Shown here: piece by piece, positions 6,154 to 38,100 of the stretch
How positions within the stretch are numbered: position 1 is the stretch's first letter
Layout: every line of letters starts with the position of its first letter
Assembly (NCBI GenBank): GCA_947476925.1
Contig: CANJSF010000007.1
Coordinates: forward strand, 1 to 64,000
DNA from: Rhodospirillaceae bacterium
GTDB taxonomy: Bacteria; Pseudomonadota; Alphaproteobacteria; Rhodospirillales; Rhodospirillaceae
DNA length: 64,000 nucleotides
Direction of reading: 5' to 3'
Translations under genes and position numbers: made by a program
Notes under the pieces: model-generated
The model's input: only the letters and a program-made list of their open reading frames with translations
What the model was told of the DNA's origin: nothing
The model's database searches: none

Positions 6154-6155
6154 TC

Positions 6156-8044: not shown

Positions 8045-8070
8045 CGATCAACCTATCTCTGTACGAAGAA

Positions 8071-9162
8071 TTAAACCGGCTTATCGCCGACGCGACCCGC
8101 GCGGCCCAGCTCTTGCGGATCATGCGAACGCAAGGTGAAGCCTGCCTGTTCCATCAACGCTTCCACATCGCAGGTGACAAAGCCGGGGGCATAAGGCTCG
8201 CCGTTGTCACACGCATCCATCAATCCCATGAAATTGGTGCCTCCACTGCGGTTCTTGGCGCTGAAGAAATCCCACAACACAAATACACCGCCGGGGCGCA
8301 GCACACGCTTAGCTTCGTTCAGCACCCGTTTAATCACGGGCACCGGAATTTCATGGAACAGCAGATGCGCCGTGACAACGTCGAAATGGTTGTCCGGGAA
8401 ATCTAAATCTTCCGCCGGCATTTGCGCGTAATGCACATCCAGGCCCTGTTGGATCGTACGCCAGTGGGCATAACGCACCATCGGCGCGCCGATGTCGGTG
8501 CCCCACACCTCGGCATCGGGGAAGCGCTTCTTCAGCCCGCATGCCATTTGGCCAATCGAGCACCCTACTTCCATCACGCGCTTGACCACGCCGTCTTTGG
8601 GGGTGGCAGTTTTATCCGCCATGGAATGGTGCAGCGAGTCGGCATCGCCAGCGCCGCCAAAGAATATTTTCGTGCCGTAATCGTAGGTCAGCGCACCCAA
8701 GGTTTTGCCCGTATACCCGCCGGGCTGAATGTGAATGTCGACAGTGGCATAGGCGGGGTAGACAAAGTTGGGGTCCCACGTCACCGAGCCGGGGCCCGTC
8801 TTGTCGGCTTCGTTCAAGGCTTGCTCAAATTCAGACGCTTTCATGCCGTAGGATTCGGCGATGCGCTGCCAGTAAGATTCCTGCAACGTGCGTTTCACAC
8901 GGAAATAAGTGGCAATCTCGGGCACTTTCATCACTACGCCCTTGATTGCTTCTGGGCTGTTGGGGAGGTTGCCCGTGGCTTTAGCGGCAGCGTCCAATTC
9001 GCCAGCGCCGAGTTGGCCAATGTTTTGGAACTGCGCGTACATGAGAATGTTGCGGGCATCTGAAACGAAGTCGCAATAGGCTTCGTCCGCGCGCTTCAAC
9101 AACTCCGGCGAGTTGCCGTTAAATCCGCGTGTCAGCAGTGATTTTGTGTCGATATGGCCCAT
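8071..9162 (-). CDS. Class I SAM-dependent methyltransferase with N-terminal extension
   Basis: A cytoplasmic class I methyltransferase of 363 residues. The SAM-binding core lies at about 190-330: motif I VMEVGCSIGQM, the acidic motif II residue in WGTDIGAP, LDFPDNHFDVVTAHLLFHE, and RVLRPGGVFVLWDFF. About 180 residues precede the core and contain no domain I can name; they may bind substrate or form a dimer. The layout recalls natural-product or lipid C-/O-methyltransferases, but no substrate can be assigned. The start has AGGA about nine bases upstream. It is the first gene of a two-gene leftward unit and diverges from rlmI. Confidence 0.8.
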   Translation of the reverse strand: MGHIDTKSLLTRGFNGNSPELLKRADEAYCDFVSDARNILMYAQFQNIGQLGAGELDAAAKATGNLPNSPEAIKGVVMKVPEIATYFRVKRTLQESYWQRIAESYGMKASEFEQALNEADKTGPGSVTWDPNFVYPAYATVDIHIQPGGYTGKTLGALTYDYGTKIFFGGAGDADSLHHSMADKTATPKDGVVKRVMEVGCSIGQMACGLKKRFPDAEVWGTDIGAPMVRYAHWRTIQQGLDVHYAQMPAEDLDFPDNHFDVVTAHLLFHEIPVPVIKRVLNEAKRVLRPGGVFVLWDFFSAKNRSGGTNFMGLMDACDNGEPYAPGFVTCDVEALMEQAGFTLRSHDPQELGRAGRVGDKPV

Positions 9163-20101: not shown

Positions 20102-21358
20102 TTACTTGCCCGCTGCCTTTTCCACGGCTTTCCAGGCGCGCAGGAAGTTGCCGCTCCACAGCTTGCCGATGTCGCGCTCGCTGTAGCCGCGCTTGACAAG
20201 CTCTTTGGTCAGGCCCGGCGCCTCGGCCGCGGTTTTATAGCCAATGATCCCGCCGCTATGCTCCATGTCGGTCGCAATGCCCACATGGTCAATGCCAATG
20301 AGCTTCACGGCGTAGTCGATGGAGTCGGCCATATCAACCACTGTGGCTCCGGCATTGGCCCAGCGCTCACGGTATCCCGTCATGGCCTTCATAAATTCGG
20401 GCATCTTTTCTTTGGGCAATTTCGCGCCCGCATCGGTGAATGTTTTTAGCCCGAAGCTTTTTTCAATTGCGGCCAAGTCGTCTTGCTGTTCCTTCGGCGC
20501 GTTCTTGAGGTAGCTGGCAAAGGCGACGATGTGCACCACGCCACCTTTGGCGGCGATGGCTTTCATTTCTTCGTCGGTCAAGTTGCGGCTTGTATCAACT
20601 TTGGCCTTTACGCCCACGTGCGAAGCCACCACCGGCGCTTTGGATAACGCGACGGCTTGCATCACGGCATCTTTGGTAATCTGCGAGACGTCGATGATGA
20701 TACCCAATCGATTCATCTCAGCTACGGCTTGTTTGCCCAAGGGCGTCAGACCGCCTTGTGCGCCCTCTTTGTCGCCAAATTTATCTTGGGGCCGGTTGCT
20801 ATCGGCGAATTGGTTGTTGCCCGCATGGGTGAACGCCACCATGCGCAAGCCACGACCGTACAAGTCGCCAAGCCATTTTGTGTCTTCGCCATAAGGATAA
20901 GCGTTGACGACCGACAGCACGAGGAAGTGTTTGCCGCTTTTGACTATGCGCGCCACATCATCGGCGCGCCGCGCCATCTCAATGCGCGCGGGGTAGGTGC
21001 TCAACATTTTTTCGATGGCGGCAAGTTTTGTGTCCATTTCCTTGCGGGCCTTGGCGTAGTTCTCGGGCGTGCGGGTGTTCTGCAGCGCAAACAAGACGAA
21101 CGCGGCTCCATCTAACTTGCCGGCGTCCATCTTCGGCAGGTCCACTTGCATCTTGGTGTCTTTGCCCGCGTCCTTGTCGCCAGCCATGAAATCCAGCGGA
21201 ATATCCATCTCGGCATCGAATGTGATGACGCGCTCATGAATCGCCATGGCTTGCGCACCGAGGTCGACCGATGTCGATGGTGCGGGTGCCTTGGCCGCAC
21301 AGCTCGCCAAAACAACAGCAAGCGCAGCTATCGAAATGCCCCGAAAGAATGTGCTCAT
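20102..21358 (-). CDS. M19 dipeptidase-like lipoprotein, probable pseudoenzyme
   Basis: A paralogue of the dipeptidase at 13414 and colinear with it, but with a lipobox (LASC, C20) in place of a plain signal, so it should be a lipid-anchored envelope protein of 418 residues. Most metal and substrate residues of the family are replaced. The first His of HxD is E50 (DAEMD), the bridging Glu is V151 (SVVNAYP), the substrate His is Q226 (IDVSQIT) and the second-metal His is T256 (DTSRN). Only H247 and D52 remain, along with the late aspartate (GIATDME). The fold is intact and the frame unbroken, so it is not a decayed pseudogene. A binding or structural role, or an altered metal centre, is more likely than dipeptidase activity. 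ATG 21358 has GGGAG six bases upstream. Confidence 0.85.
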   Translation of the reverse strand: MSTFFRGISIAALAVVLASCAAKAPAPSTSVDLGAQAMAIHERVITFDAEMDIPLDFMAGDKDAGKDTKMQVDLPKMDAGKLDGAAFVLFALQNTRTPENYAKARKEMDTKLAAIEKMLSTYPARIEMARRADDVARIVKSGKHFLVLSVVNAYPYGEDTKWLGDLYGRGLRMVAFTHAGNNQFADSNRPQDKFGDKEGAQGGLTPLGKQAVAEMNRLGIIIDVSQITKDAVMQAVALSKAPVVASHVGVKAKVDTSRNLTDEEMKAIAAKGGVVHIVAFASYLKNAPKEQQDDLAAIEKSFGLKTFTDAGAKLPKEKMPEFMKAMTGYRERWANAGATVVDMADSIDYAVKLIGIDHVGIATDMEHSGGIIGYKTAAEAPGLTKELVKRGYSERDIGKLWSGNFLRAWKAVEKAAGK

Positions 21359-21505
21359 GGATATCTCCCAAACGTCTGCCAAGATGGTACCTGTCGCTTG
21401 GTCAGCGGTCGACTCTTTCGGGGGGCCTGCCACATAAATAGAATGCATCGAGAAAAATCACCTTTTTCGGTTCCCGTTTGCTGAAATTCAGTCTTCAATC
21501 AGGCC

Positions 21506-22063
21506 ATGGCCAGTTTCGAACGTCCCGCTGATCCCAACATTGCACCCTCGCCCTGGGTGTTGCGCTTTGCCGCGCTGATTACCCCCCACGGTACCGTGTT
21601 GGATGTGGCGGCTGGTCATGGCCGACACACACGAGCGTTGCGCGCGTTGGGTTTTGGTGTGCTGGCCACCGATGTCGATGTGGCAGGCCTTGCCGATTTG
21701 CGCACCGATTCAGGGGTGGTGATTTCGCAGCTTGATTTAGAAACCGGCGCTTGGCCATTTGTTGGGCGACAATTCGACGCCATCGTTGTCACAAACTATC
21801 TACATCGAGCCCAATTCGCTCATTATAAAGAGGCCCTGGCTAACGACGGCGTGTTGATCATTGAAACATTCGGCCAAGGCAACGAGCTTCTGGGTCGCCC
21901 TCGCAACCCAGAATTTCTGTTACGCCCCGGCGAGTTGCTCGAAGCATTTTCATCCTCATTGCATATCGTAGCCTATGAACATGGCGCCGAACACGAGCCA
22001 CGCCCCGCCGTACGCCAAAGGCTTTGTGCCGTGAAAACAAATTCGCCGGTGTTGTTGCCATGA
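21506..22063 (+). CDS. Small class I SAM-dependent methyltransferase
   Basis: A 185-residue cytoplasmic methyltransferase of the TehB/UbiE-like fold. Motif I is VLDVAAGHGRHTRALRALG, the acidic motif II residue is in LATDVDVAGL, and later parts are FDAIVVTNYLHRA and DGVLIIETFGQGNE. The protein has no extra domains and no known target. The frame looks real because motif I is complete and its stop overlaps the ATG of the next gene in an ATGA arrangement, which suggests translational coupling to a periplasmic binding protein. It diverges from the M19-like lipoprotein, with 147 bases between them. The Shine-Dalgarno sequence is weak. Confidence 0.75.
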   Translation: MASFERPADPNIAPSPWVLRFAALITPHGTVLDVAAGHGRHTRALRALGFGVLATDVDVAGLADLRTDSGVVISQLDLETGAWPFVGRQFDAIVVTNYLHRAQFAHYKEALANDGVLIIETFGQGNELLGRPRNPEFLLRPGELLEAFSSSLHIVAYEHGAEHEPRPAVRQRLCAVKTNSPVLLP

Positions 22064-23671: not shown

Positions 23672-25843
23672 ATGAATAAGATCGCCAGCCATCTCCCCGC
23701 ACTCGATGCGCAAAGCCGTCGCGGCTTTTTAGGCGCTGCTGCCGGTGGATTAACGCTGGCCATGACCCTTCCGGCTGTTCGGTCATCCATGGCCAAGGGC
23801 GACGGGGCTGCGGCCTTAAGCGCTTACGTGCAAATCACGCCCGATGACGTGGTCTCTGTTGTCGTTCCCGGCGTGGAGTTCGGCCAGGGTGTGTACACCG
23901 GCTTATCAAAAATTCTGTGCGAAGAGTTGGAGGCTGATTTCAGCCGTATCGACATCAAACTCGCCACGGCCAACATGGCTTTCGCCAACCCCGCCAAAAA
24001 GCGTCAAAGCACGGGCAATTCCGATGCCATCATTGGCTACATGCCGGTGTTGTTGAAAACCGGTGCGCAGGGTCGCGAAATGCTGGTCGCAGCTGCCGCC
24101 AAACAATGGAACGTCAAACCCGACGAATGCCGCGCCGAGAGCGGCAAGATTTTCCATGATGCTTCTAAGCGTAGCGTGACGTTTGGTGCGGTCGCCGCCG
24201 CCGCCGCTAAGTTGCCGGTTCCAGCCGAACCCAAGTTGAAAGATCCATCAACTTGGAAATTGATCGGCAAAGATTTCACCCGCAAAGACACGCCTGCGAA
24301 AGTCGACGGTAGTGCCAACTTCGGCGCCGACGTCGCGCTCGAAGGTTTGTTGGTTGCGACGCTGACGACATCGCCTGTGTTTGGCGGTCAAGTGAAGTCG
24401 TATGACCGCGCCGCTGCCATGGCCGTAAAGGGCGTGGTCGCGCTGGTCGATATTGATAATGGCTCAGGCACCGGCGGTTTAGCCGCTGTGGCTGAGAATT
24501 TTTACCAAGCCAAAAAGGCGCTCGATGCCGCCAAAATTGAGTGGGACTCCAAGGGCGGCGAAAATTTCAGTTCAGCTCAGCATTCGCGCGATTTGCGGGC
24601 AGCCCTGAACGAAGAGGGCAAGCCCGTTGCACCGTTCAAAAAAGGCGATGCGCCGGAAGCCTTTAAAACTGCGGCCAAAACACTTGAGGCGATATATGAA
24701 GTGCCGCTGCTGGCCCACGCCTGTATGGAGCCGATGTCGTCAACGGCGCTTATCACTGACGCGAGCTGCATGATCTGGTCACCTGCCCAAAACCAATCAG
24801 CGTCACACGAGCTGGCGGTCACGATGACGAAGTTGCCGGCCGACAAAGTAACGCTTCAAAACACATTTGCGGGCGGCGGCTTTGGCCGCAAGTGGGAGTT
24901 AGATTTCACCCGCCAAGTGTTGCAAATCGCTATGGCCGTGAAGGGTCGGCCCGTGCGTCTGTATTGGACACGCGAAGAAGATATTCAGCACGACTATTAT
25001 CGCCCTGCTTATGTATCGCGCGTGCGCGGCGCGCTCGACAAAGACAACAATCTCATCGCCCTTAGCGCTAAAATTGCTGGGCAGTCGATGCTGGCGTTTC
25101 AAAAGCGCCCCGCGCCGGTGGACTTTACCTCCATCGGTGGGTCGATTAATCCGGTTTACGGCGTGCCCAATACGTCCATGGAGTATGTCGAAAAAAATCC
25201 AAACGTTCCCGTGGGTTTTTGGCGTTCGGTCGCCAGTTCGCAACATGGCTTTACGTCCGAGAGCATGATCGATGAAATGGCAGCGCTCGCGGGCAAAGAT
25301 GCTTTTGAGTTCCGCATGACCATGCTCAAAGACAAGCCGCGCGAACTCGCAGTTCTAAAACTCCTCAAAGAAAAATCAGGTTGGGGCACAAAGCTGCCCG
25401 CAGGCGAGGGGATGGGCTTAGCCTTTACGCCGGGCTTTGGCTCGGTCGTGGCGCAAGTGGCTCATGTCTCGGTGAAGGGCGGCGAACTGCGCGTGAAAAA
25501 AATCACCTGCGTGGCTGACTGCGGCACCTTGATCGAGCCCAATAATGTGCTCGCTCAGCTCGAAAGTGGCATGGTCTACGGCTATTCGGCGGCGGTGTTT
25601 GACGAGATCACCATCGAAAAGGGTGCAGTCAAACAAAGCAACTTCAACGATTATCCCATGCCAACATTGGCCAACACGCCGGAAATGGAGATTCACCTCA
25701 TTCCCAGCACCACCAAACCAGGTGGCGTCGGCGAAAGCTCGGTGCCTGCGGTGGCCCCGGCCATTGCTAACGCGGTGTTTGCGGCCACCGGCCAGCGGAT
25801 TCGCAAGTTGCCGCTCAAGAACGCTGGGTTAAGCGTCGCTTAA
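23672..25843 (+). CDS. Tat-exported molybdopterin hydroxylase large subunit (IorB-like)
   Basis: The molybdopterin-binding subunit of a xanthine dehydrogenase-family hydroxylase, of the isoquinoline 1-oxidoreductase beta type. These enzymes hydroxylate aldehydes or N-heterocycles with water as oxygen source. The 723-residue protein begins with a twin-arginine signal (QSRRGFLGAAAGGL), so it is folded with its cofactor before export. Family motifs are VVVPGVEFGQGVYTGL, LLAHACMEPMSSTA, GGGFGRKWELDFTRQ, GFWRSVASSQHGF and the C-terminal GVGESSVPAVAPAIANA with the likely catalytic Glu. The start has GGAGGA six bases upstream. The usual small 2Fe-2S partner (IorA) is not encoded next to it or anywhere in the window. 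Confidence 0.88.
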   Translation: MNKIASHLPALDAQSRRGFLGAAAGGLTLAMTLPAVRSSMAKGDGAAALSAYVQITPDDVVSVVVPGVEFGQGVYTGLSKILCEELEADFSRIDIKLATANMAFANPAKKRQSTGNSDAIIGYMPVLLKTGAQGREMLVAAAAKQWNVKPDECRAESGKIFHDASKRSVTFGAVAAAAAKLPVPAEPKLKDPSTWKLIGKDFTRKDTPAKVDGSANFGADVALEGLLVATLTTSPVFGGQVKSYDRAAAMAVKGVVALVDIDNGSGTGGLAAVAENFYQAKKALDAAKIEWDSKGGENFSSAQHSRDLRAALNEEGKPVAPFKKGDAPEAFKTAAKTLEAIYEVPLLAHACMEPMSSTALITDASCMIWSPAQNQSASHELAVTMTKLPADKVTLQNTFAGGGFGRKWELDFTRQVLQIAMAVKGRPVRLYWTREEDIQHDYYRPAYVSRVRGALDKDNNLIALSAKIAGQSMLAFQKRPAPVDFTSIGGSINPVYGVPNTSMEYVEKNPNVPVGFWRSVASSQHGFTSESMIDEMAALAGKDAFEFRMTMLKDKPRELAVLKLLKEKSGWGTKLPAGEGMGLAFTPGFGSVVAQVAHVSVKGGELRVKKITCVADCGTLIEPNNVLAQLESGMVYGYSAAVFDEITIEKGAVKQSNFNDYPMPTLANTPEMEIHLIPSTTKPGGVGESSVPAVAPAIANAVFAATGQRIRKLPLKNAGLSVA

Positions 25844-25916: not shown

Positions 25917-26867
25917 ATGCGGCGCTTTGCCATAGCCACGGCGATCTTATTGTTCAGCGCTGTTGCAGGGCTTGCACCTGCGGCCTCGCAAGGCCTGCGA
26001 ACAATTCAAGATTGCCCTACATGTCCCGAGGTGATTGCCATTCCAACGGGCTCATTCCTGTTTGGGACCAACGCCGGAAGTTTCGAACTCGACAAGGTGG
26101 GTCGGGGACGGGCCGAGGCGGGCCAGGTTAAAATCAATATCAATCAGTCCTTTGCTATGGGTCGCACCGAAGTGACGCGCGCCCAGTACGCCGCATTTGT
26201 CGCGGCAAGCGGCTATAACCCCGAGACGAAGTTCTGCCGCGTTTGGGATCAAGATGGTGGACGGTTTTCAGACGTGCCGGGGCGCAACTGGCGCGATCCC
26301 GGTTTGGTCACACCCCCACAGGACGATCACCCGGTCACGTGCGTGAGTTGGGATGACGCCGTGGCCTATACGCAGTGGCTCAGCAAACAGACGGGCAAAC
26401 GTTATCGACTGCCCAGCGAAGTTGAGTGGGAATATGCCGCGCGCGCCGGATCTGACAAGCGCCGCTTCTGGAGCGATGATGCCTCGGAAGGCTGTGCTTA
26501 CGCTAACACTTACGACCTCACAGCGCGGCGCGCATACGCGTTGTCTTGGGCGCATGTGGGTTGCGCCGATGGCTTTGCCGATGTGGCGCCCGTGGGCTCA
26601 CTGTTGCCAAATAATTTTGGCCTTCAAGACGTTGTGGGAAATGTTTGGGAATGGGTGGCCGATTGCTTCACCACATCCAAGATTGGCCGTCCCAAAGATC
26701 AACGCGCATGGGTGTGGGACGGTTGTGCCGATCGGGGTTTGCGGGGCGGCGGTTGGATGACCGCACCTGATCGCAGCCGCGTTGGCTTTCCGGCAGGCGA
26801 CCCGCCAACCGATCGCTATTCGTTCTTAGGTTTTCGTGTCGCGCGAGATCTTGAGGCGGGGGAATAA
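25917..26867 (+). CDS. Exported SUMF1/FGE-like protein 1 (eight-cysteine type)
   Basis: A periplasmic protein with a formylglycine-generating-enzyme (SUMF1) fold, 316 residues. A Sec signal ends near PAASQG. Then come QDCPTCPEVIAIPTGSFLFG, GRTEVTRAQYAAFV, HPVTCVSWDDAVAYTQWL, RLPSEVEWEYAARAG, GNVWEWVADC and LRGGGWMTAPDRSR, ending FLGFRVARDL. True FGEs have two catalytic cysteines just after the RGG-aromatic motif; here those sites are Thr and Ser, so formylglycine formation is not expected. Eight other cysteines could form four disulfides. This is the first gene of a four-paralogue unit; its TAA shares a base with the next ATG. Related non-FGE members act in ergothioneine or pyoverdine pathways, but the role here is unknown. 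Confidence 0.85.
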   Translation: MRRFAIATAILLFSAVAGLAPAASQGLRTIQDCPTCPEVIAIPTGSFLFGTNAGSFELDKVGRGRAEAGQVKININQSFAMGRTEVTRAQYAAFVAASGYNPETKFCRVWDQDGGRFSDVPGRNWRDPGLVTPPQDDHPVTCVSWDDAVAYTQWLSKQTGKRYRLPSEVEWEYAARAGSDKRRFWSDDASEGCAYANTYDLTARRAYALSWAHVGCADGFADVAPVGSLLPNNFGLQDVVGNVWEWVADCFTTSKIGRPKDQRAWVWDGCADRGLRGGGWMTAPDRSRVGFPAGDPPTDRYSFLGFRVARDLEAGE

Positions 26868-27805
26868 TGCTCGGGATTCGGTTTTTACTTATCGCTGCAC
26901 TGACGAGTATGCCGTTGGTGGCCAACGCTGCGCCCGCGGCCGGAAGCGCAGTGAAAGACTGCCCCTCGTGCCCCGACTTGGTGGTGGTTCCTGCGGGTCA
27001 ATTCCGCATGGGCACACCCAAAAGCCAAGTGGCAAATAACGAAACCGGCGAAGCGCCGCCGGTGCAAATGACGATTCCCAAACCATTTTTACTCGGGCGC
27101 ACCGAGGTGACACGCGCCGAGTTCGAAGTTTATGCGCGCGAGAAAAATTTCGAACCCGTGGGTTTGTGCCGCGTGTGGAATAGAACCAAGGGCCGCTACG
27201 ACGACGATAAAAATCGCACGTGGCGCAAACCCGGCGTGCCCGAAGTACCGCTGGCCAATCATCCCATCAGCTGTGTGAATTGGTTTGAAAGCAAAGACTA
27301 CATCGCCTGGTTGGCAGCAAAAACCGGCAAGCCTTATCGGTTGCCGACAGAAGCAGAGTGGGAATATGCCGCGCGTGCGGGCTCGTCGGGTCTGAACCCG
27401 TGGGGGCCGGACGAAAATGGCTGCAAGACCGCCAACGTGTACGACATCACCACCATGAAGAAGACACCGCTGGCTTGGCCGCATGCCATGTGCGTGGATG
27501 GCTTTGCTGATATCGCCCCTGTGGGCTCACTCAAGCCCAACAAATTTGGCCTTTACGATATGATTGGTAACGTCTGGGAATGGGCCGAGGACTGCGCCAC
27601 CAAAAGCCATGTGGGCCGCCCGCTCGATGGTAAGGCGTGGGTATGGGAGGGCGGCTGCAAGCGCGTTATTCAACGGGGCGGTGGCTGGTTTACATCACCC
27701 GAGCGCGCCCGGCCTGGCTACCATGGTGATGCTGCGGCATTAGATCGGTTTGACTTTGGCGGCTTTCGGGTCGCCCGCGACCTGACGGCGGAGGAACAGA
27801 AATGA
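26867..27805 (+). CDS. Exported SUMF1/FGE-like protein 2 (eight-cysteine type)
   Basis: Second tandem paralogue, 312 residues. A Sec signal ends near ANAAPAA, followed by KDCPSCPDLVVVPAGQFRMG, LGRTEVTRAEFEVYA, GLCRVWNRTKGRY, HPISCVNWFESKDYIAWL, RLPTEAEWEYAARAG, GNVWEWAEDC and IQRGGGWFTSPERAR. The catalytic cysteines of FGE are absent, while all eight group cysteines are present. Its start codon overlaps the upstream stop (TAATG) and its own stop overlaps the next ATG (ATGA), so translation of the unit is probably coupled. The region after the first cysteine pair differs most between paralogues and may set substrate choice. Confidence 0.85.
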   Translation: MLGIRFLLIAALTSMPLVANAAPAAGSAVKDCPSCPDLVVVPAGQFRMGTPKSQVANNETGEAPPVQMTIPKPFLLGRTEVTRAEFEVYAREKNFEPVGLCRVWNRTKGRYDDDKNRTWRKPGVPEVPLANHPISCVNWFESKDYIAWLAAKTGKPYRLPTEAEWEYAARAGSSGLNPWGPDENGCKTANVYDITTMKKTPLAWPHAMCVDGFADIAPVGSLKPNKFGLYDMIGNVWEWAEDCATKSHVGRPLDGKAWVWEGGCKRVIQRGGGWFTSPERARPGYHGDAAALDRFDFGGFRVARDLTAEEQK

Positions 27806-28770
27806 AATCGTTTACGTTCGGGCTGTTGCTGTCAATTTGTGCCAGTGGCGTCGTTGTCGCTGCTGAAGATGCACCGGTGGCCAGCGCATCGGCCAAAATC
27901 ATCCGTGACTGCCCTACGTGCCCAGAGATGGTCGTGGTGCCCGCGGGCAAATTTGTCATGGGCACGCCCGGCGGATCGGAAGAAGTTGAAGAATCCACCG
28001 GTGAGTCATTTCAATTACCCGTGAACATCGAAAAAGCCTTTGCCCTGGGCAAAACAGAAATCACCACGGCGCAATATGCCGACTTTGTACGCGAAGCTGC
28101 TTATAAGCCTGATCCCGGCTGTCGGCTGTGGAATGATCGGTGGCTCAATGACCCCAAAAGCGATTGGCGTGGCGATGGCCTGCGCAAAGCGCCCAAGCCC
28201 AATTTTCCAGTCACCTGCGTCAGCTGGGTCGACGCCAAAGCATATGCAGCCTGGTTGAGCAAAAAAACCGGCAAAACCTATCGCCTGCCGTCTGAATCGG
28301 AGTGGGAGTACGCGGTGCGTGGCGGCACAACAAGCCCGCGCTATTTTGGGTTTAACTCATTTGAAGGTGTGTCTATCTCGCTGGCCTGTGACAATGGCAA
28401 TGTCTACGACGTCACGGCGCAAAGCGCTTATCCGTTCCCCTATCCTTACGCGCGCTGCAAAGACAACTTCGCTGATTTAGCGCCTGTCGGCTCGTTCAAA
28501 GCCAATCCGTTTGGCCTTCATGACATGATCGGCAATGTCGCCGAGTGGGTGGAAGATTGCTACACCGCCAGCTATTGGGGCCGTCCGCCCAACCAGAAAG
28601 CCTGGGTGTGGCAGGGCGGTTGCGAGACGCGCGGCCTTCGCGGCGGCGCCTGGACAAGCCGTCCTTCTGAAGCGCGCTCGGCTCAGCGCCAAAATGCAGC
28701 AGCCTCAACCCGCACGACATACATCGGTTTTCGAGTCGCGCGCGATGTCGCCGAAGGAGAAGCCAAATGA
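27802..28770 (+). CDS. Exported SUMF1/FGE-like protein 3 (eight-cysteine type)
   Basis: Third tandem paralogue, 322 residues, with a Sec signal ending near VVVAAED. The blocks are RDCPTCPEMVVVPAGKFVMG, LGKTEITTAQYADFV, PGCRLWNDRWLND, FPVTCVSWVDAKAYAAWL, RLPSESEWEYAVRGG, GNVAEWVEDC and LRGGAWTSRPSEARS. It has the same eight cysteines and no FGE catalytic pair. It departs from its sisters in GNVAEW (for GNVWEW) and in an insertion FNSFEGVSISL before the fifth cysteine. ATGA overlaps join it to both neighbours. Confidence 0.85.
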   Translation: MKSFTFGLLLSICASGVVVAAEDAPVASASAKIIRDCPTCPEMVVVPAGKFVMGTPGGSEEVEESTGESFQLPVNIEKAFALGKTEITTAQYADFVREAAYKPDPGCRLWNDRWLNDPKSDWRGDGLRKAPKPNFPVTCVSWVDAKAYAAWLSKKTGKTYRLPSESEWEYAVRGGTTSPRYFGFNSFEGVSISLACDNGNVYDVTAQSAYPFPYPYARCKDNFADLAPVGSFKANPFGLHDMIGNVAEWVEDCYTASYWGRPPNQKAWVWQGGCETRGLRGGAWTSRPSEARSAQRQNAAASTRTTYIGFRVARDVAEGEAK

Positions 28771-30191
28771 AGCGGCTTTTGATTTTGCTCAGTGTCTTGG
28801 CCGCCCCCGTATTTGCGCAAGACAACCCCGAGGCTTCGCTTAAGCCCGGCAGTGTTGTGAAAGACTGCCCCACATGCCCGGACTTAGTGGTGATTGCCCC
28901 TGGTGAATTCATGATCGGCAGTCCACCGGAAGCCGAAGATGTGGATGTCAGCCGAGGCGAAACGCCGCAGGTGAAAATAAAAATCGCGCGCGGATTTATG
29001 ATGGGTCGTTACGAAGTCACGTTCGGTCAGTACAAAGAATTCATGCGCGAGTCAGGCTACCAGCCGCCCAAAAAAGCCTGCCGCGTGTGGGACAATGAGT
29101 TTGTCGATAAAGACGACGCCACATGGGAAAACCCCTATCAACCGGCCAAGCCCTTACCCGAACATCCCATTAGCTGCGTCAGTTGGAACGACGCGCAAGT
29201 GTTCATCGCTTGGCTGAGCAAAAAGACTGGTAAGGCGTATCGCTTGCCGACCACGTCTGAATGGGAGTACGCGGCGCGCGCCGGTACGACCACATCGCGA
29301 TTCTGGGGCGACGGCACCGACGAAGCCTGCGACTACGCCAACACCTACGATATTTCCAGCAAAGAGAAGTATCCATTCTCGTGGAGCTTCTCGCCGTGCA
29401 AAGACGGCTATCCTGAACAAGCGCCCGTGGGCAAATTCAAACCGAATCAATTCGGCGTCTACGACATGATCGGCAACGTCTGGGAATGGACGGCCGATTG
29501 CTATGCCGGTTCGCACCAAGGTCGCCCACGGGATGGCCGGGCATGGAACTGGGAGGGCGGCTGCGAAGCGCGTGAGACGCGCGGTGGCGGTTGGATGAGC
29601 GCGTCTGAACGCAACCGCATCGCCTGGCCGGGCCGCGACCCCGCCACGCGACGGCTGAACTATTTCGGCTTCCGCATCGCGCGCGATTTAGATGCGACTT
29701 ACACACCCAACTACGACGGCGCGCAAATTCGCCGTGTCACCCTGTATAGCGGCGATATTGCCAAGGCGAAGAAATTTTGGATCGACGCTCTGGGCTACAA
29801 AGTCCGCCTCGATAACCCGGCCTTTGGCGGCGCGGACATGGCCAAGACGCTGAACCTGAACAAAGATGCGCGTGCACACTTTGTGATTCTGGAGCCGGGC
29901 AAAACTGACGGCCCGCTCATTGGCCTCATGGGCGCCACCGGCCAACAACTCGCATCGTTGGACCGCGCACCCGATCAGGCCCCCAAATCGGGCGACAGCA
30001 TGTTAGTGATCAAAGTCAAAGACATCGCCGCGACCTTCGCCAAACTAAAGGATGTGCCGGGTGTGCGCGTCATCACGCCGCCTTCAGCACTGAATGGCAA
30101 CGGCGGCACCGGCGTGGTGGGGGCCGAGGGCACAGTGCTCTCGCCCGATGGCACGCGCGTGATCATTCAACAGGTCGAGCCTGGCGGGTAA
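28767..30191 (+). CDS. Exported SUMF1/FGE-like protein 4 fused to a VOC domain
   Basis: Fourth tandem paralogue, 474 residues, the longest. After a Sec signal (ending near PVFAQDN), residues about 25-310 repeat the SUMF1 domain with KDCPTCPDLVVIAPGEFMIG, KACRVWDNEF, HPISCVSWNDAQVFIAWL, GNVWEWTADC and TRGGGWMSASERNR. Residues 312-474 form a vicinal-oxygen-chelate (glyoxalase-like) domain: RRVTLYSGDIAKAKKFW, LGYKVRLDNPAFGG and TVLSPDGTRVIIQQ. The usual first metal His of a VOC strand is Arg here, so metal binding is doubtful. The frame is continuous across the join and the stop lies at the VOC end, so the fusion is real. The amine oxidase gene starts 16 bases later. Confidence 0.86.
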   Translation: MKRLLILLSVLAAPVFAQDNPEASLKPGSVVKDCPTCPDLVVIAPGEFMIGSPPEAEDVDVSRGETPQVKIKIARGFMMGRYEVTFGQYKEFMRESGYQPPKKACRVWDNEFVDKDDATWENPYQPAKPLPEHPISCVSWNDAQVFIAWLSKKTGKAYRLPTTSEWEYAARAGTTTSRFWGDGTDEACDYANTYDISSKEKYPFSWSFSPCKDGYPEQAPVGKFKPNQFGVYDMIGNVWEWTADCYAGSHQGRPRDGRAWNWEGGCEARETRGGGWMSASERNRIAWPGRDPATRRLNYFGFRIARDLDATYTPNYDGAQIRRVTLYSGDIAKAKKFWIDALGYKVRLDNPAFGGADMAKTLNLNKDARAHFVILEPGKTDGPLIGLMGATGQQLASLDRAPDQAPKSGDSMLVIKVKDIAATFAKLKDVPGVRVITPPSALNGNGGTGVVGAEGTVLSPDGTRVIIQQVEPGG

Positions 30192-30207
30192 TTCAGGAAT
30201 ATCGCTC

Positions 30208-31653
30208 ATGATCAACCTCACGCTCCCCCGCCGCACATCACTGAAATTTCTCAGTGGTGCAGCGCTGGCGACATCGGCACTGACAGCGCGGCCCCTCCAT
30301 GCCGCAACCAAAGAGGCCGATGTCATTATCGTCGGAGCCGGTTTGTCGGGACTCATCGCAGCCTGCATTCTTGAAGAGCAAGGCAAAACGGTGGTGGTGG
30401 TCGAAGCCAAAGACCGTGTCGGTGGGCGTTGTTACACCATGACGGATCTGCCGGGCCGACCGGAAGCGGGCGGCAGTTCTGTCGGGTCCATGTACGCTCG
30501 CTTTCTCGATTGGTGCGATCGGTTCGGCATTAAGCGCACGGGCGAGCAGGGTGGCGGCAAACCCGAAGTCTTCGGGCAGGTTTACAACATCAAAGGCCAA
30601 AACATTTTGCGCAAGGATTGGGCAAGCCATGCGCTTAACCCGTTCCAAGGCGATGATAAAAAAATTACGCCCGATGGATTTCGATTCCAAATGCTCGAGC
30701 GTTACAAATCGTTCGACGATTTGGAATCGTGGGTGGAACCCAAGCTGACCAAAGACGACACGTCGATGTTTGATCTGTTCCGCGCCAAGGGTCATTCCGA
30801 CGAGGCGATTTCATTAGGTATTGGCGCCAACCCAGGCTACGGCCACACGCCTTATGATTTGTCATCGGTGCATATGTTCCACGTGTGGAACTTCGCCAAA
30901 AGCCAAGCGCTCGGCGGAACACCGCAGTTTTGGGACATCGACGGCGGCAATCAAAGCTTGCCAAAAGCCATGGCCAAATCGCTCAAGGGCGACATCTTTT
31001 TGAAAACCCCAATCGCCGCTGTTCGCAGCGATGCGCGCGGTGCCGAAGTAATTGCGGCCGATGGACGCACATTCAAAGGCAAGGCCGTGTTGATGACGCT
31101 GCCGTTCTCGGCCCTTCGCTTTGTCGCATTTGATCCGGGTTTGCACGGCGTGCAAGCCGAAGCGGTGAACACACTTCCTTATGGGACGTGCTGGCATGCC
31201 TTCCTGTCGGTGAAGGGCAAATTTTGGGAAGCCGATAGCATGCCTGCTGGCATGTGGTCTGATGGCCTGGTGGGCCGTGTCTCGGCTATGCGCAATGAAC
31301 AGGACGTCATCGGGCTTTATGCATTTCTCACCGGCAAACAAGCCATGCGCCTCAGCCGCATGAGTTTGGAGGCGGGCGGTGCAGCCTATGTGGCTGAGCT
31401 GGCCAAGCAACGCCCCTCAACCAAAGGCCAAGTGAAAGTTGAACGCGCCTGGAGTTGGGTCAACGACCCCTATGCCGGCGGCATGTACGCCTATTGGCGC
31501 CCAGGCATGATTGCGAAATTCAAAGACTCCATGGCGAAGCCCGCGGGCAAAATTCATTTCGCCGGTGAACACACATCCGACTCCACGCGCGGCCTGGAAG
31601 GCGCGCTGGAGTCAGGCGAACGCGCCGCCTACGAGATGCTGGAAAAAATCTGA
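30208..31653 (+). CDS. Tat-exported flavin monoamine oxidase family protein
   Basis: An FAD-dependent amine oxidase-fold enzyme of 481 residues that should oxidise an amine or related C-H bond in the periplasm with release of H2O2. The N-terminus is a twin-arginine signal (LPRRTSLKFLSGAALATSA). The FAD dinucleotide motif is VIIVGAGLSGLIAACILEEQ with VVVVEAKDRVGGRC. The C-terminal FAD contact is FAGEHTSDSTRGLEGALESG. The substrate is unknown. It follows the SUMF1-VOC gene by 16 bases and is probably the fifth gene of that unit, so the SUMF1 proteins and this oxidase may work on one compound or one complex. A paralogue lies at 49017. Confidence 0.88.
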   Translation: MINLTLPRRTSLKFLSGAALATSALTARPLHAATKEADVIIVGAGLSGLIAACILEEQGKTVVVVEAKDRVGGRCYTMTDLPGRPEAGGSSVGSMYARFLDWCDRFGIKRTGEQGGGKPEVFGQVYNIKGQNILRKDWASHALNPFQGDDKKITPDGFRFQMLERYKSFDDLESWVEPKLTKDDTSMFDLFRAKGHSDEAISLGIGANPGYGHTPYDLSSVHMFHVWNFAKSQALGGTPQFWDIDGGNQSLPKAMAKSLKGDIFLKTPIAAVRSDARGAEVIAADGRTFKGKAVLMTLPFSALRFVAFDPGLHGVQAEAVNTLPYGTCWHAFLSVKGKFWEADSMPAGMWSDGLVGRVSAMRNEQDVIGLYAFLTGKQAMRLSRMSLEAGGAAYVAELAKQRPSTKGQVKVERAWSWVNDPYAGGMYAYWRPGMIAKFKDSMAKPAGKIHFAGEHTSDSTRGLEGALESGERAAYEMLEKI

Positions 31654-31775: not shown

Positions 31776-32930
31776 TTATTCGGCTGCGGCCTTGATACCC
31801 GCCTCGGTCGTACGCATGGGCACCGGGTCAATCACCCAGCCCTTCGACTCGCGACGTGCAGGCGAAGGAATGGCGAACACAGCCTTGCCGCGCATCGCCA
31901 CAACTTTGTCCATATCGATCCGCCAGCCGCGATTTTCCCAGTCCTTGCAGAACTCGCGGAATCGCGCGATGGGCACGTCGGCCGGCATGAACACCTCGTG
32001 CGTATTTGTGCGCGGTGTCTCGATCGGTTCGATGTCTTCTAAGATCAGCTTGTCCTGTTTGGCGACATAGAGATTGCGCTCCATGATGCGTTTGTCATCG
32101 TCTTCGGTGGCCAGGAAGTTGCGCAAGGTCACCAGATAAACTTGTGTGTGCCGTTCATCGATTGGTGTTTCGTACAAATATTGATGAATGTGAGCGTGCG
32201 GCGAGGGGTGAATATGCGTCCACACGGCCGAAGGGCCATGATGACCTGTGCCTGCTTCGATGAACGCATTCTCGGTGCGCCCGCTGGCCGCGCGCATGCG
32301 CGCTTCGGGCAAGGGAGGCGAGTGCATCTTGTTAAAGAAGCCGATACCCCAGGTACTTTCCTTCATGTTCAATTCGTGTACGCGGTAGTCATCGCGCTCG
32401 CCCGAGAACCCGTGGGTATCATGCACATATTCATTATGTGCAGGGTCAATGGAATTCTCGATGGAGCGCTTATAGTCGATGTTCCACACGCCGGGCTGTT
32501 GCACGGTCGCGCGCCAGCCGTCTTTACCGTACTCAGGAATTTCCATAATGGGCGGGCGTTCGGCTTCCGGCAGATCGCCCAAAAAGACGAAGATCAGTCC
32601 GTACTTTTCCTGCACCGGGTATGCGTCAATTTTGGTGCGCGCCGGGATTTTTCCATGCTCCGCGCCGTCCACAGGCCCCAGCGACGGAATCTTCACGCAC
32701 GCACCGCCGCCCTTAAAGCGCCAGCCGTGATAGGGGCACTCCACAGTATCGCCACGGACCTTGCCGCCCGCCAACGACCCGCCGCGATGGGTGCAGACAT
32801 TTGATAAACACTGCGCTTGGCCTTTTGAATCGCGGAACAGCACAAACGTGTGGCCCAACATTTTGACTTTGACAGCCTGATCTTTCAGATCGGCCGCTGT
32901 GCTCGCCACATACCAAAAATTGATGAACAT
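31776..32930 (-). CDS. Rieske non-haem iron oxygenase alpha subunit
   Basis: A cytoplasmic ring-hydroxylating or demethylating oxygenase alpha subunit, 384 residues. The Rieske 2Fe-2S ligands are C46, H48, C65 and H68 (NVCTHRGG, VECPYHGW). The mononuclear iron site is in SIDPAHNEYVHD: D162, H165, H170. The C-terminal domain is of the SRPBCC-like catalytic type. ATG 32930 has GAGGGG five bases upstream; a longer frame to 33005 is less likely. No ferredoxin or reductase gene is adjacent, so electrons must come from elsewhere. The substrate is unknown; members act on aromatic acids, choline-like amines and steroids. Confidence 0.9.
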   Translation of the reverse strand: MFINFWYVASTAADLKDQAVKVKMLGHTFVLFRDSKGQAQCLSNVCTHRGGSLAGGKVRGDTVECPYHGWRFKGGGACVKIPSLGPVDGAEHGKIPARTKIDAYPVQEKYGLIFVFLGDLPEAERPPIMEIPEYGKDGWRATVQQPGVWNIDYKRSIENSIDPAHNEYVHDTHGFSGERDDYRVHELNMKESTWGIGFFNKMHSPPLPEARMRAASGRTENAFIEAGTGHHGPSAVWTHIHPSPHAHIHQYLYETPIDERHTQVYLVTLRNFLATEDDDKRIMERNLYVAKQDKLILEDIEPIETPRTNTHEVFMPADVPIARFREFCKDWENRGWRIDMDKVVAMRGKAVFAIPSPARRESKGWVIDPVPMRTTEAGIKAAAE

Positions 32931-33063
32931 CGTTCCCCTCCAACACTGGTGTTTGTGTGCGTGAACACTGACAGCAAGGTGAGGAATCGATTTGACCTGT
33001 ATCAAGTTCCTGGGCCGATGTTTGCCTTGGCTAACGTGTGGTCAGGTGGGCCGTGATCAGGCG

Positions 33064-33984
33064 CTATTTAGGTAACGTGAGCGCCACGCGAAAGCCCAAC
33101 AGCTGGCTGTGGTAGACCGCCGGGTCTTTGCTTTGGCTCATGGCTTTCAGCCAATCGGTGCCCGAGGCCCATGCACCGCCGCGCGGCGTGTGCGCCATAC
33201 AATCGCCCCCGTCCTCCGTCATCCACGCACGGCCATCGGTGGGCACTTTGCTCATGTCGGCATGGAAACAGTCTTCGCTCCACTCCCAGGCGTTGCCCAG
33301 CATGTCGTGCAGGCCCCAGGCATTGGGCTTGAAAGAGCCGACAGGGGCCAGACGCTCCCAGGTGTCGTTGCAGGCAAACACGGGGCCGTAGCTGTACAGC
33401 CGCCGGTAGGTGTCATCGGCGACATTGGCATACTCGCAGGCTTTGGCGCTTTCAGGGCCCCAAAACCATGGCCCACGCGTACCTGCGCGCGTGGCGTACT
33501 CAAATTCAGTCGATGACAGCAGCCGATAAGGCTTGCCGGTTTTTTTGCCCAGCCATTTCACAAATGCCGTGGCGTCTTGCCAACTCACGCACACCACAGG
33601 TGCGTCATCGCGCTGCGGTTGGCCGGGGTTGTCCCAGGTGTAGCCTTCGGTCTGACCGATAATTTTATTGAAGCCCCACGTGTTGCACGACGTGGTCGGG
33701 CTGGCGTACTTGGTGTCTTTCACGAATTGCCGGTACAGCGCTCGCGTGGTCTCGGTTTTGGCCACTGCGAATGAATATGCAATGTTCACTTCGCGCACTG
33801 GGCCCCAACCTGCTTTCATATCTTGATCCCAAGGCTCGGCACCCAGCACGGCTTTGCCCGTTGGCAGCACCACCATCTCAGGGCAAGTCTCGCAATCTTT
33901 GAACGTATCACCGGCTTTTTGTTCGGCGGCGAAGGCCTGAACCCCAAATGCTAAGCCGACGGCGAAAATTGCGAGTGCGTGCAT
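33064..33984 (-). CDS. Exported SUMF1/FGE-like protein 5 (eight-cysteine type)
   Basis: A fifth SUMF1-fold paralogue, 306 residues, outside the tandem unit and on the other strand. A Sec signal ends near VQAFAAEQ. Then KDCETCPEMVVLPTGKAVLG, AKTETTRALYRQFV, TSCNTWGFNKIIG, APVVCVSWQDATAFVKWL, LSSTEFEYATRAG, GNAWEWSEDC and TPRGGAWASGTDWLK. The eight-cysteine pattern is kept, and the FGE catalytic cysteines are absent. It is the most diverged of the five: RLP becomes RLL and GNVWEW becomes GNAWEW. The adjacent Rieske gene lies downstream on the same strand, 133 bases away. A divergent lipoprotein gene begins 163 bases on the other side. Confidence 0.84.
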   Translation of the reverse strand: MHALAIFAVGLAFGVQAFAAEQKAGDTFKDCETCPEMVVLPTGKAVLGAEPWDQDMKAGWGPVREVNIAYSFAVAKTETTRALYRQFVKDTKYASPTTSCNTWGFNKIIGQTEGYTWDNPGQPQRDDAPVVCVSWQDATAFVKWLGKKTGKPYRLLSSTEFEYATRAGTRGPWFWGPESAKACEYANVADDTYRRLYSYGPVFACNDTWERLAPVGSFKPNAWGLHDMLGNAWEWSEDCFHADMSKVPTDGRAWMTEDGGDCMAHTPRGGAWASGTDWLKAMSQSKDPAVYHSQLLGFRVALTLPK

Positions 33985-34147
33985 GATAGGTCTCCAACGA
34001 CTTTCCCCAGCATAATCAATCGCGGTGGCATCTCAACCGATCAAGGTGGAATGGTTTTCTCTTTCTCCATCGCCAAGCCCCTTGCCAAACCGCCGGATTT
34101 GCATTGTCATTGATGTTATTGAACTCGATGTTCTGGGGAGAACGCAC

Positions 34148-35293
34148 ATGTCACCTTTCAAGTTGGCCGCCCTGTCTGCTACCGCCCTCGCACTCACCGC
34201 TTGCGCTGACATGAAAAGCAGCTCGCCCAATCCGCTCGCGGGGATGAACATGGAGCAGCGCATTGCTGCCATGGCGCCAATCATGACGGGCACAGAGCTG
34301 TCCAACTACATGATCCCCAACATCCCCGAAGCGGCGGAGGCTTATTACGGGCCAGACTCAAAACTCTTGATTGCGCAAACGCGCGACCTCGACGCCAAAA
34401 AAACCTCGATGGGCACGGCTGGCGCGTTGACGTGGATTTTTTCCGACGATGGCAAAAAATCCTGGCGGGTGAATGACGGCGGACAAGATGCCTGCTCGTA
34501 TATTTTTCCCGACAATAAGCGCGCGATCTTTACATCGACGCGCGACCATACGGATATGCCTGTCGGCAATTGGTCGGACTCTAACGACTATCCCCAAGGC
34601 GCAGAACTTTATATCGCCGATTTAGACGGCAAAAATCGCAAACGCTTGACCAACAATAAATATTACGAAGCCGAAGTATCCGTATCTCGCGACGGCAAGC
34701 AAATTGTGTTCGGCCGCCAGATCGACGGCAAAATGGATTTGTGGATCATGAATGCCGACGGCACGGGCGAGCGCCGCCTGACGAATACGCCCGATTGGCA
34801 AGAGGGCGCGCCGTTCTTCATGCCCGGAGATGACCGCATTATGTTCCGGGCCTGGCGCGCCAGCGAGTACGGCAAAGTTCGCCCCACGCCTATGACAGTG
34901 TTCACCATCAAAACAGATGGCACCGATTGGCGTCGCTATACCTACGACCAAGACATGAACTGGGCGCCATTCCCGGCGCCTGACGGCAGGCACTATGTGT
35001 TTGTGCGCGTGGCAGATTTGAAAACCAATAACTGGGACGTGTTCCTGGGGGACTTGGCCGGCACGCCGCCCAAGCGCCTGACCTTTAATGACAAGTTCGA
35101 TGGCTTCCCGGCGGTCTCGCCCGACGGCAAAAAAATGGTGTTTGCGCGCTCCACCGGCGAGCGCTTCATGAGTGGAATTAAAACTTTCATCATGGATATT
35201 TCGTCGCTGGGCATTGGCACCAAGAACGAGTTCAACCCCAATTGGGGTATGCCGATGCAAGACGACCCGCCGCAAAAGGCAGAAGCAAAATAG
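34148..35293 (+). CDS. TolB-like beta-propeller lipoprotein (PD40 repeats)
   Basis: An envelope lipoprotein of 381 residues with lipobox LTAC (C19). From about residue 65 to the end it consists of WD40-like PD40 repeats: ELYIADLDGKNRKRLTNNKY, VSRDGKQIVFGRQIDGK, LWIMNADGTGERRLTNTPDW, FTIKTDGTDWRRYTYDQD and VSPDGKKMVFARSTGE. These repeats form a propeller like that of TolB, but the TolB N-terminal domain and tol-pal genes are absent, so it is not TolB itself. It probably binds a protein or glycan at the membrane. ATG 34148 has GGGGAG about eight bases upstream. The DUF1838-like gene starts three bases after its stop. Confidence 0.82.
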   Translation: MSPFKLAALSATALALTACADMKSSSPNPLAGMNMEQRIAAMAPIMTGTELSNYMIPNIPEAAEAYYGPDSKLLIAQTRDLDAKKTSMGTAGALTWIFSDDGKKSWRVNDGGQDACSYIFPDNKRAIFTSTRDHTDMPVGNWSDSNDYPQGAELYIADLDGKNRKRLTNNKYYEAEVSVSRDGKQIVFGRQIDGKMDLWIMNADGTGERRLTNTPDWQEGAPFFMPGDDRIMFRAWRASEYGKVRPTPMTVFTIKTDGTDWRRYTYDQDMNWAPFPAPDGRHYVFVRVADLKTNNWDVFLGDLAGTPPKRLTFNDKFDGFPAVSPDGKKMVFARSTGERFMSGIKTFIMDISSLGIGTKNEFNPNWGMPMQDDPPQKAEAK

Positions 35294-36233: not shown

Positions 36234-36285
36234 ATTAGTCTTGTTGCGTCTGTGGTTATGTCAGCCGGACCCTGGGGAGGGACCA

Positions 36286-37182
36286 ATGATTGCAGCACTC
36301 AAACGCCCGCCTTTTATCGGCGCTATCGCCTTTGCCCTCGTTTTTATTTTCACCGCCATCGGCCATTCGGTGATGGTGTTGATTATGGATATTTTTGGCA
36401 GCGCGCAGTTTCTCACTGCCTTTATGCAAGGCCTACTTGGCACGGTGATGATCTATGTGGGCGTGCGTTACAATGACAACGAAAACGTCGCCACGTGGTT
36501 GGGGTTCTTCGGCGGCTCATGGTTGTGGGCCGGCTGGGTCGAGTTTTCCTACGTCTACTTCTCTCGCCATGTGGGTATCGAGCCCATGCCTTTGGGTGGC
36601 GGGCGTCAGCAACTCCCGGAATATCTCCTGTTGCCCTCTAGCATTGGGTTTTTGTTCACCACGCTGGTCTTTTTCTATTTCAACCGCGAAACGCGCTGCA
36701 ATGCGTTTCGCTGGATGCACAAACATCTTCATACGCCGGTTGGTAAACCCACGCTCAACTACCAACGCAACATCGCCACCATTGTCGCGATGGAGAAATT
36801 CTACATCACTTGGTTTTTCTACATCGTCCTGCTGCTGGCCTACGACAAGCGCATCATGGGCGCGCAACACCCAGGCATGTACGTGATGTTTTTCTTGTTT
36901 GGCGTTTGGTCGTTGTACCTGCTCAACCGCTTGCGCAAGTACACACGGCTACCATCAGCATTTCGTTACGCCATCGCCACAGCGTTGGTGGCCTGGAACA
37001 CTGTGGAGATTCTCGGCCGCTGGCGATTTTTGAAAGAAGTCTGGGTTGAGCCACAAAAATACACGGTGCAAATGGCGCTGATTGTCGGAGCGTTTGTCAC
37101 TGTCTTTGTCATCTTCGCGTTGTTCCCCAGTGTCGACACCCCCGACAAAGACGACGCGCGCGCGCCACAGCCCGCTGAATAG
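36286..37182 (+). CDS. Unknown multi-pass membrane protein, tandem copy 1
   Basis: An integral inner-membrane protein of 298 residues that I do not recognise. About six hydrophobic helices are visible, starting with PPFIGAIAFALVFIFTAIGH. Distinctive parts shared with the next gene are ATWLGFFGGSWLWAGWVEFS, NRETRCNAFRWMHKHLH, PTLNYQRNIATIVAMEKFY, ITWFFYIVLLLAYDK and WNTVEILGRWRFLKEVWVEP. The tail is acidic and proline-rich. Repeated Trp and His within or next to helices could hold a cofactor or metal. ATG 36286 has GGGGAGG six bases upstream. The gene follows the lipoprotein/DUF1838 pair by 74 bases and may be in the same unit. Confidence 0.72.
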   Translation: MIAALKRPPFIGAIAFALVFIFTAIGHSVMVLIMDIFGSAQFLTAFMQGLLGTVMIYVGVRYNDNENVATWLGFFGGSWLWAGWVEFSYVYFSRHVGIEPMPLGGGRQQLPEYLLLPSSIGFLFTTLVFFYFNRETRCNAFRWMHKHLHTPVGKPTLNYQRNIATIVAMEKFYITWFFYIVLLLAYDKRIMGAQHPGMYVMFFLFGVWSLYLLNRLRKYTRLPSAFRYAIATALVAWNTVEILGRWRFLKEVWVEPQKYTVQMALIVGAFVTVFVIFALFPSVDTPDKDDARAPQPAE

Positions 37183-37200
37183 ATAAAAAGGAAACCAACC

Positions 37201-38100
37201 ATGATCGCTATTCTCAAGCGCCCCCCGTTTATTGGCATATTTGCGTTTATGTTAGTCCTCCTGTTGCAGGGCCTTGGCCACGCGCAAATGGTGCTGCAGG
37301 AAAAAATATTCGGCGAGGAGTACGTTTTCCAAAGCGCGGCCATCATGGGTGTGATCGGCATGGCCTTGGTCTATTGGGGGGTGCGCCTCAATCACAATGA
37401 AAATGCGGCCACCTGGTTGGGCTTCTTTGGCGGCACGTATATTTGGGATGGCTGGTGCGAATTCTCCTATGTTTTTTATGCCCACCATTTGGCTGTGGCG
37501 AACTTGGTTGAGAATCGCGAAATCGTCACCAGGGCCGAGTACCTGCTTATGCCATCATCCATCGGCGTATTGTTGTCTACACTCGTCTTTTTCCTTTTCA
37601 ATCGCGAAACCCGCTGCAACGCGTTTCGATGGATTCACAGGAACTTGCATCTCCCCGTCGGCAAACCGACGCTGAACTACCAGCGCAATATCTCCACCAT
37701 CGTTGCCATGGAAACGGTCTATCTCACTTGGTTCTTCTACCTGTTCTTGTTGATTGCCTACGATAAACAAATTCTGGGCGACGATCATTGGGCCATGTAC
37801 CCCATTCTGTTCATGTTCATTGTCTGGTCGGTTTACTTGCTCAACCGCCTACGCAAATTCAGCCGCTTGTCGTCGGCTTTTCGCTACGGCATTCCCACGG
37901 CTATCATTACCTGGAACACTGTTGAGATTCTGGGCCGTTGGAACATCTTCACTGAAGTGTGGATCGAGCCACAAAAATATACGGTGCAGGTGCTGGTGAT
38001 TTTGGCGGCATTCATCACAGTAGCAGTGATCTTTGCGCTGTTTCCCTCGACGGAGAAACCAGACGAGGATGACCGCCCCACGGTACAGCCCGCCGAATAG
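37201..38100 (+). CDS. Unknown multi-pass membrane protein, tandem copy 2
   Basis: A close paralogue of the previous gene, 299 residues, with the same helix layout: PPFIGIFAFMLVLLLQGLGH, ATWLGFFGGTYIWDGWCEFS, NRETRCNAFRWIHRNLHLP, PTLNYQRNISTIVAMETVY and EILGRWNIFTEVWIEP. The two differ mainly in the second helix and in the loop after WDGWCEFSYVFYAHHL. Conservation of the central block in both suggests the function resides there; the copies may form a heterodimer. It starts 18 bases after copy 1 with AAAAGGAAACC as ribosome site. A strong intrinsic terminator begins 20 bases after its stop, closing the unit. Confidence 0.72.
   Translation: MIAILKRPPFIGIFAFMLVLLLQGLGHAQMVLQEKIFGEEYVFQSAAIMGVIGMALVYWGVRLNHNENAATWLGFFGGTYIWDGWCEFSYVFYAHHLAVANLVENREIVTRAEYLLMPSSIGVLLSTLVFFLFNRETRCNAFRWIHRNLHLPVGKPTLNYQRNISTIVAMETVYLTWFFYLFLLIAYDKQILGDDHWAMYPILFMFIVWSVYLLNRLRKFSRLSSAFRYGIPTAIITWNTVEILGRWNIFTEVWIEPQKYTVQVLVILAAFITVAVIFALFPSTEKPDEDDRPTVQPAE

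Follow-up and report, generated by a model that had tools for sequence, protein, structure and literature searches.

The window analysed here, a stretch of 64,000 nucleotides from Rhodospirillaceae bacterium (assembly GCA_947476925.1, contig CANJSF010000007.1, positions 1 to 64,000 of the forward strand), encodes four exported proteins of the SUMF1 fold in tandem, flanked by a molybdenum enzyme and a flavin amine-oxidase-family protein. We found these genes to form a conserved set and not a chance neighbourhood. Because the set was kept across five genera, an undescribed pathway that oxidizes a small molecule outside the cytoplasm appears probable. As a more specific reading we tentatively favour, at somewhat below even odds, an uncharacterized periplasmic oxidation pathway that uses proteins resembling PvdO, the periplasmic pyoverdine-maturation protein of Pseudomonas. 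A literature search found no published account of the locus.

All genes of the set lie on the plus strand of the window. The first (23672-25843; PF02738 and PF20256) encodes the large subunit of a molybdopterin hydroxylase or aldehyde oxidoreductase with a twin-arginine translocation (Tat) signal (SRRGFLG), and ends 73 bases upstream of SUMF A. The open reading frames of SUMF A (25917-26867; PF03781, E 3.6e-60), SUMF B (26867-27805), SUMF C (27802-28770), SUMF D (28767-30191) and the oxidase (30208-31653; PF01593, E 4e-49) were all present as given in the sequence-only reading, an earlier inspection of this DNA. Its description of four tandem SUMF1-fold genes with overlapping ends and a Tat-exported flavin amine oxidase behind them agreed with our coordinates, Pfam families and junctions, which are TAATG for A/B, ATGA for B/C and C/D, and 16 bases between the stop of D and the ATG of the oxidase. 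Translation starts are computed predictions, and signal peptides were judged by eye as Sec-type in the SUMF proteins and twin-arginine (RRTSLKF) in the oxidase. SUMF B is the most conserved of the four, while the alignment showed a conserved insertion (NSFEGVS..SLxC) ahead of cysteine 5 in SUMF C. SUMF D, with 474 residues, consists of an N-terminal SUMF1 domain (28767-29720; PF03781) and a C-terminal VOC/glyoxalase domain (29724-30191; PF00903, E 2e-7) in which the alignment showed a single invariant His. A nine-row profile of this VOC domain gave no match among solved structures, and model confidence was low in the region. The molybdenum enzyme, the VOC domain of the fourth gene and a fifth paralogue (SUMF E) beside a Rieske oxygenase had been absent from the sequence-only reading.

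Gene order was compared by tblastn over 16 genomes, with loci from five genera (g1, g2, g3, g5 and g17). The common order comprised a methylmalonyl-CoA mutase and an M19 dipeptidase on one strand and, on the other, a methyltransferase, the molybdenum enzyme, SUMF A in part of the loci, SUMF B, SUMF C, SUMF D with or without VOC domain and the oxidase, often followed by SUMF E and a PD40 protein. Wherever the locus was intact, the molybdenum enzyme adjoined the SUMF genes; the locus of genome G020 is broken between contigs within C, and the contig of G036 begins within D. Orthologues of B, C, D and the oxidase shared about 46-74% identity between genera. Of 73 genomes of the family, 13 had a true match to SUMF B and 16 had the oxidase, in the same five genera. 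That the four genes and the oxidase behave as a set had been proposed before, with rare neighbourhood named as the finding that would speak against it, and the context comparison came out in favour of the set. The proposal of four paralogues as its fixed content stood only in part, as the number varied: SUMF A was confined to g1 and g17 and thus missing from three of the five genera, B was missing in two genomes (G001, and G094 together with C), and the reduced locus of G094 consisted of the molybdenum enzyme, D with its VOC domain and the oxidase. The VOC domain itself was absent in G003 and G027. The oxidase was always kept together with D, and because D is present in every locus copy and is the sole SUMF protein retained in G094, we regard D as the constant SUMF partner.

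The four SUMF proteins matched PF03781 with E-values of 3e-51 to 3e-60 and scores of 159-205 bits, far above the curated cut-off of 23.3. They share the fold and core motifs of the formylglycine-generating enzyme (FGE, SUMF1) but lack its catalytic cysteine pair after the RGG-aromatic motif, as had been noticed from the sequence. At the first site Cys occurred in none of 81 relatives and Ser or Thr in 64 of them, while a profile alignment placed the second Cys within a three-residue insertion that is present only in FGE and has no counterpart in the SUMF proteins. The suspected likeness to PvdO was borne out by sequence and fold. Profile comparison gave 264 bits (E 1e-77) for PvdO and 155 bits for human FGE. 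An AlphaFold2 model of SUMF B (pLDDT 95, pTM 0.93) had PvdO (5hha) as its best solved match (Foldseek E 9e-30, TM 0.79/0.88), ahead of FGE structures. PvdO (NF051459) was also the best NCBIfam family for the SUMF proteins of the window and was matched by all 81 rows of our tree, but the window proteins scored 187-217 bits, all below the equivalog cut-off of 500. By these comparisons the SUMF proteins are PvdO-like, not PvdO. EgtB, OvoA and SenA also contain an FGE-type domain; in contrast to them the SUMF proteins have no additional N-terminal iron-binding domain and scored 27-78 bits against cut-offs of 360-420.

The eight cysteines singled out in the sequence-only reading were invariant in SUMF A to D and also in SUMF E. 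A special role for them was not supported. The complete pattern was found in 79 of 123 aligned homologues, mostly from this bacterial family, and losses among the 123 went by pairs, namely 1-2, 3-4, 5-6 and 7-8. Homologues L050 and L041 lacked only pair 1-2, L044, L046 and L048 additionally lacked 7-8, L047 and L057 retained only 5-6, and PvdO was without 5-6 (its third cysteine fell in a gapped stretch and hence remained unaligned). Because the cysteines are lost as four pairs, they look like four structural disulfides between sequence neighbours, and a redox-active role is disfavoured. They look like ordinary structural features of this SUMF branch, and what makes the locus interesting is how its partners have stayed together and how far the SUMF genes have expanded.

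In a quick tree of 81 SUMF domains, with Shimodaira-Hasegawa-like approximate likelihood ratio test (SH-aLRT) values as the only support, the rows of A, B, C and D formed separate clades (100, 100, 97 and 97, respectively) united in one clade (98) that comprises four orthogroups, with SUMF E outside in a clade of its own (100). As judged from this tree, the array is the product of an old duplication whose copies were then retained as distinct proteins. We dropped paralogue-specific pocket residues as an additional argument, since the positions fixed yet different between B, C and D were only two (284 and 286). The genome of the window encodes 22 SUMF1 proteins at 15 loci, while other genomes of the family encode 0 to 25 each. 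Two further SUMF records may be mentioned here: L014 contains a SUMF1 domain fused with a Ser/Thr protein kinase domain (5202-7616, minus strand), and L040, recorded as Bordetella parapertussis, looks misnamed, as its SUMF protein groups among those of this bacterial family.

The molybdenum enzyme retains the GGGFGR and GxGE active-site motifs in addition to both large-subunit domains, and its closest solved relative is the large subunit of an aldehyde dehydrogenase (8gy3_C, E 4.5e-71), from which the locus differs by having neither a small 2Fe-2S subunit nor a cytochrome subunit. The oxidase scored 168.5 bits against PF01593 and carries the flavin adenine dinucleotide (FAD) motif GAGLSG and the C-terminal motif; among its relatives in the PDB are monoamine oxidase B (MAO-B), L-amino-acid oxidase and putrescine oxidase, and it shares the PF01593 fold and the FAD motifs with the first two.

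Amine-oxidase-family genes were also found near SUMF genes beyond the operon. In six genomes, 11 of 64 PF01593 genes lay no more than 3 kb from a SUMF gene versus 1.5 expected by random placement. Six of these 11 were operon copies and five were at other loci (G000:C33, G002:C6 and G028:C2, G000 being the genome of the window). A third type of locus, conserved in G005, G008, G026 and L036, combines a SUMF pair with an old yellow enzyme, a glutathione S-transferase (GST) and two oxidases, the PF01593 genes being 6-10 kb from SUMF. Orthologous loci are not independent, and the truly independent cases of oxidase-SUMF association number about three. Genes for old yellow enzyme, GST, nitrilase, hydrolase, cupin and DUF1838 proteins were neighbours at other SUMF loci, a content typical of catabolic loci. 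The make-up of the operon and its sister loci speaks for catabolism more than for peptide maturation. A second conserved SUMF pair, seen in L022, L024, L028 and L036, is accompanied by old yellow enzyme, GST-like, abhydrolase, IclR and major facilitator superfamily genes and by two PF01593 oxidases. In locus L006 (3550-10841), from the genome of the window, a SUMF gene is enclosed by two amine-oxidase-family genes whose catalytic Lys is retained; nitrilase and peptide-binding genes are close by. The window itself encodes a second Tat-type PF01593 oxidase (49017-50504), in which Arg takes the place of the usual Lys.

The pathway that we favour would act on a small molecule that is probably either an amine or an N-heterocycle, and the core oxidations would be carried out by the Tat-exported molybdenum hydroxylase and the Tat-exported flavin oxidase. 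The SUMF proteins, presumably likewise periplasmic, might act like PvdO: each would have an FGE-type fold, stabilized by four disulfides, in which it binds the substrate or an intermediate, and would either assist or carry out a further dehydrogenation. SUMF D would be the essential partner, and A, B and C, as diverged copies, may serve other intermediates or substrates. An action on a periplasmic small molecule beside two oxidoreductases is suggested by analogy with PvdO, which the pyoverdine fluorophore needs for its final oxidation, that of dihydropyoverdine, in the periplasm (PMC6206403). Like the SUMF proteins, PvdO of Pseudomonas has an exported SUMF1 fold without the FGE cysteines, a DCxxCP start and six of the eight cysteines; it differs by the absence of the additional pair 5-6, and the SUMF locus differs by its tandem paralogues, its molybdenum enzyme and flavin oxidase neighbours and the lack of a non-ribosomal peptide synthetase (NRPS) pathway. 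The narrower idea that several diverged PvdO-like proteins, one of them with a VOC domain, work one after another on a single substrate alongside the molybdenum hydroxylase and a lysine-less flavin oxidase seems rather doubtful to us.

Several observations weigh against this oxidation pathway. Most SUMF genes in the genome of the window have no oxidase nearby, and several stand alone next to housekeeping genes. The position of MAO-B Lys296 is occupied by His in all operon orthologues checked, and by Lys, Gln or Arg in oxidases beside other SUMF genes. Because the active-site Lys is replaced, amine oxidation by the operon oxidase is likely from its family but not assured. No 2Fe-2S small subunit (PF01799) was found in the locus, and the genome encodes three elsewhere, so the molybdenum enzyme probably requires a partner subunit in trans; with about eight large subunits of molybdenum hydroxylases versus three small subunits in this genome, the latter may be shared. 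The Glu that PvdO carries at the FGE Cys site is usually Ser or Thr in the SUMF proteins. Moreover, PvdO was inactive when purified, and no cofactor could be detected in it (PMC6206403), so that PvdO-like catalysis is itself unproven.

The strongest alternative, which we consider possible though somewhat less probable than the oxidation pathway, is that the SUMF proteins are non-enzymatic secreted binding or scaffold proteins, which would either hold the substrate or bring the two exported oxidases together. The FGE fold and C-type lectins are related, and the structural relatives PorK/GldK were among the matches. PorK/GldK, CalU17, ToxD and CarF all have FGE-like folds, several of them from natural-product gene clusters, but are less similar to the SUMF proteins than PvdO and occur in other gene contexts. 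The absence of both the FGE cysteines and an EgtB-type metal domain would agree with a binding function, and the multiple diverged paralogues and the fused VOC domain with its single invariant His would suit ligand binding. However, the nearest relative, PvdO, is required for an oxidation step, and the SUMF proteins may have a cryptic active site.

Plain paralogue expansion without a joint function, in which the gene order is simply an inherited neighbourhood, we regard as unlikely. The expansion of SUMF genes in several genera of the family, the dispensability of B and C in some loci and the conservation also of flanking genes with ordinary roles, such as methylmalonyl-CoA mutase, are consistent with it, but the core order persisted although the proteins have diverged to about 50-60% identity, while the edges gained or lost genes. 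The start-stop overlaps further suggest a single transcript, and the constant pairing of the oxidase with D also argues for a functional link.

Slightly less likely still is the maturation of an exported peptide or siderophore, in the way of PvdO and pyoverdine, and the peptide-modifying role raised in the sequence-only reading was not supported. Besides the relationship to PvdO, maturation has in its favour the conserved M19 dipeptidase gene, PvdM being an M19 homologue as well. The dipeptidase is encoded on the opposite strand, the locus showed no gene for a precursor peptide, and NRPS condensation domains were lacking in the locus and in four of six operon-bearing genomes, with one each in the other two, which makes siderophore maturation a weak candidate. 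The formation of formylglycine to activate sulfatases or other proteins, suggested by the shared Pfam family and fold, can be rejected at the sequence level with near certainty, as the catalytic cysteines are missing and the six operon-bearing genomes encode 17-22 SUMF proteins versus 0-3 matches to sulfatases (two of the six have none at all; one versus 22 SUMF1 proteins in the genome of the window).

Among exported SUMF1 proteins of this type PvdO has been studied best, and its mode of action is still unsolved. With 15-25 natural paralogues per genome and partners that can be named, the question of catalysis could be tackled outside pyoverdine synthesis. If the narrower idea of successive action on one substrate should prove right, these numbers would mean that the family uses the PvdO fold as a general platform for periplasmic oxidases. 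If the SUMF proteins are enzymes, a large uncharacterized group of exported oxidases would be hidden under the label of formylglycine-generating enzyme; if they are not, a large annotation error would be cleared.

The conserved flanks of the set include, upstream, the M19 dipeptidase with a lipoprotein-type signal (20102-21448, minus strand; PF01244, E 5.7e-85) and the methyltransferase-like gene (21506-22063, plus strand; weak match to PF13649). Downstream, SUMF E (33064-33984, minus strand; PF03781, E 2.6e-46) is followed after 58 bases on the same strand by a Rieske oxygenase with a VanA/KshA-type C-terminus (31776-33005, minus strand; PF00355 and VanA_C). The Rieske oxygenase was also found in G020 and G036, and the pair with SUMF E recurred in G020 (L120). 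The PD40 protein, a TolB-like propeller (34025-35293, plus strand; PF07676), is a flank in most locus copies. Scans for promoters and terminators of the locus gave results no better than chance. Further downstream (36241-38100), the window encodes in tandem two similar proteins with multiple membrane spans, the first of them without a Pfam match; this pair was kept in G003 and G036 and is present as a single copy in G028. At 7664-9162 the minus strand encodes a protein with a methyltransferase domain together with a small one of unknown family, and relatives of these two genes were located directly upstream of the molybdenum enzyme in G005, G008 and G027.

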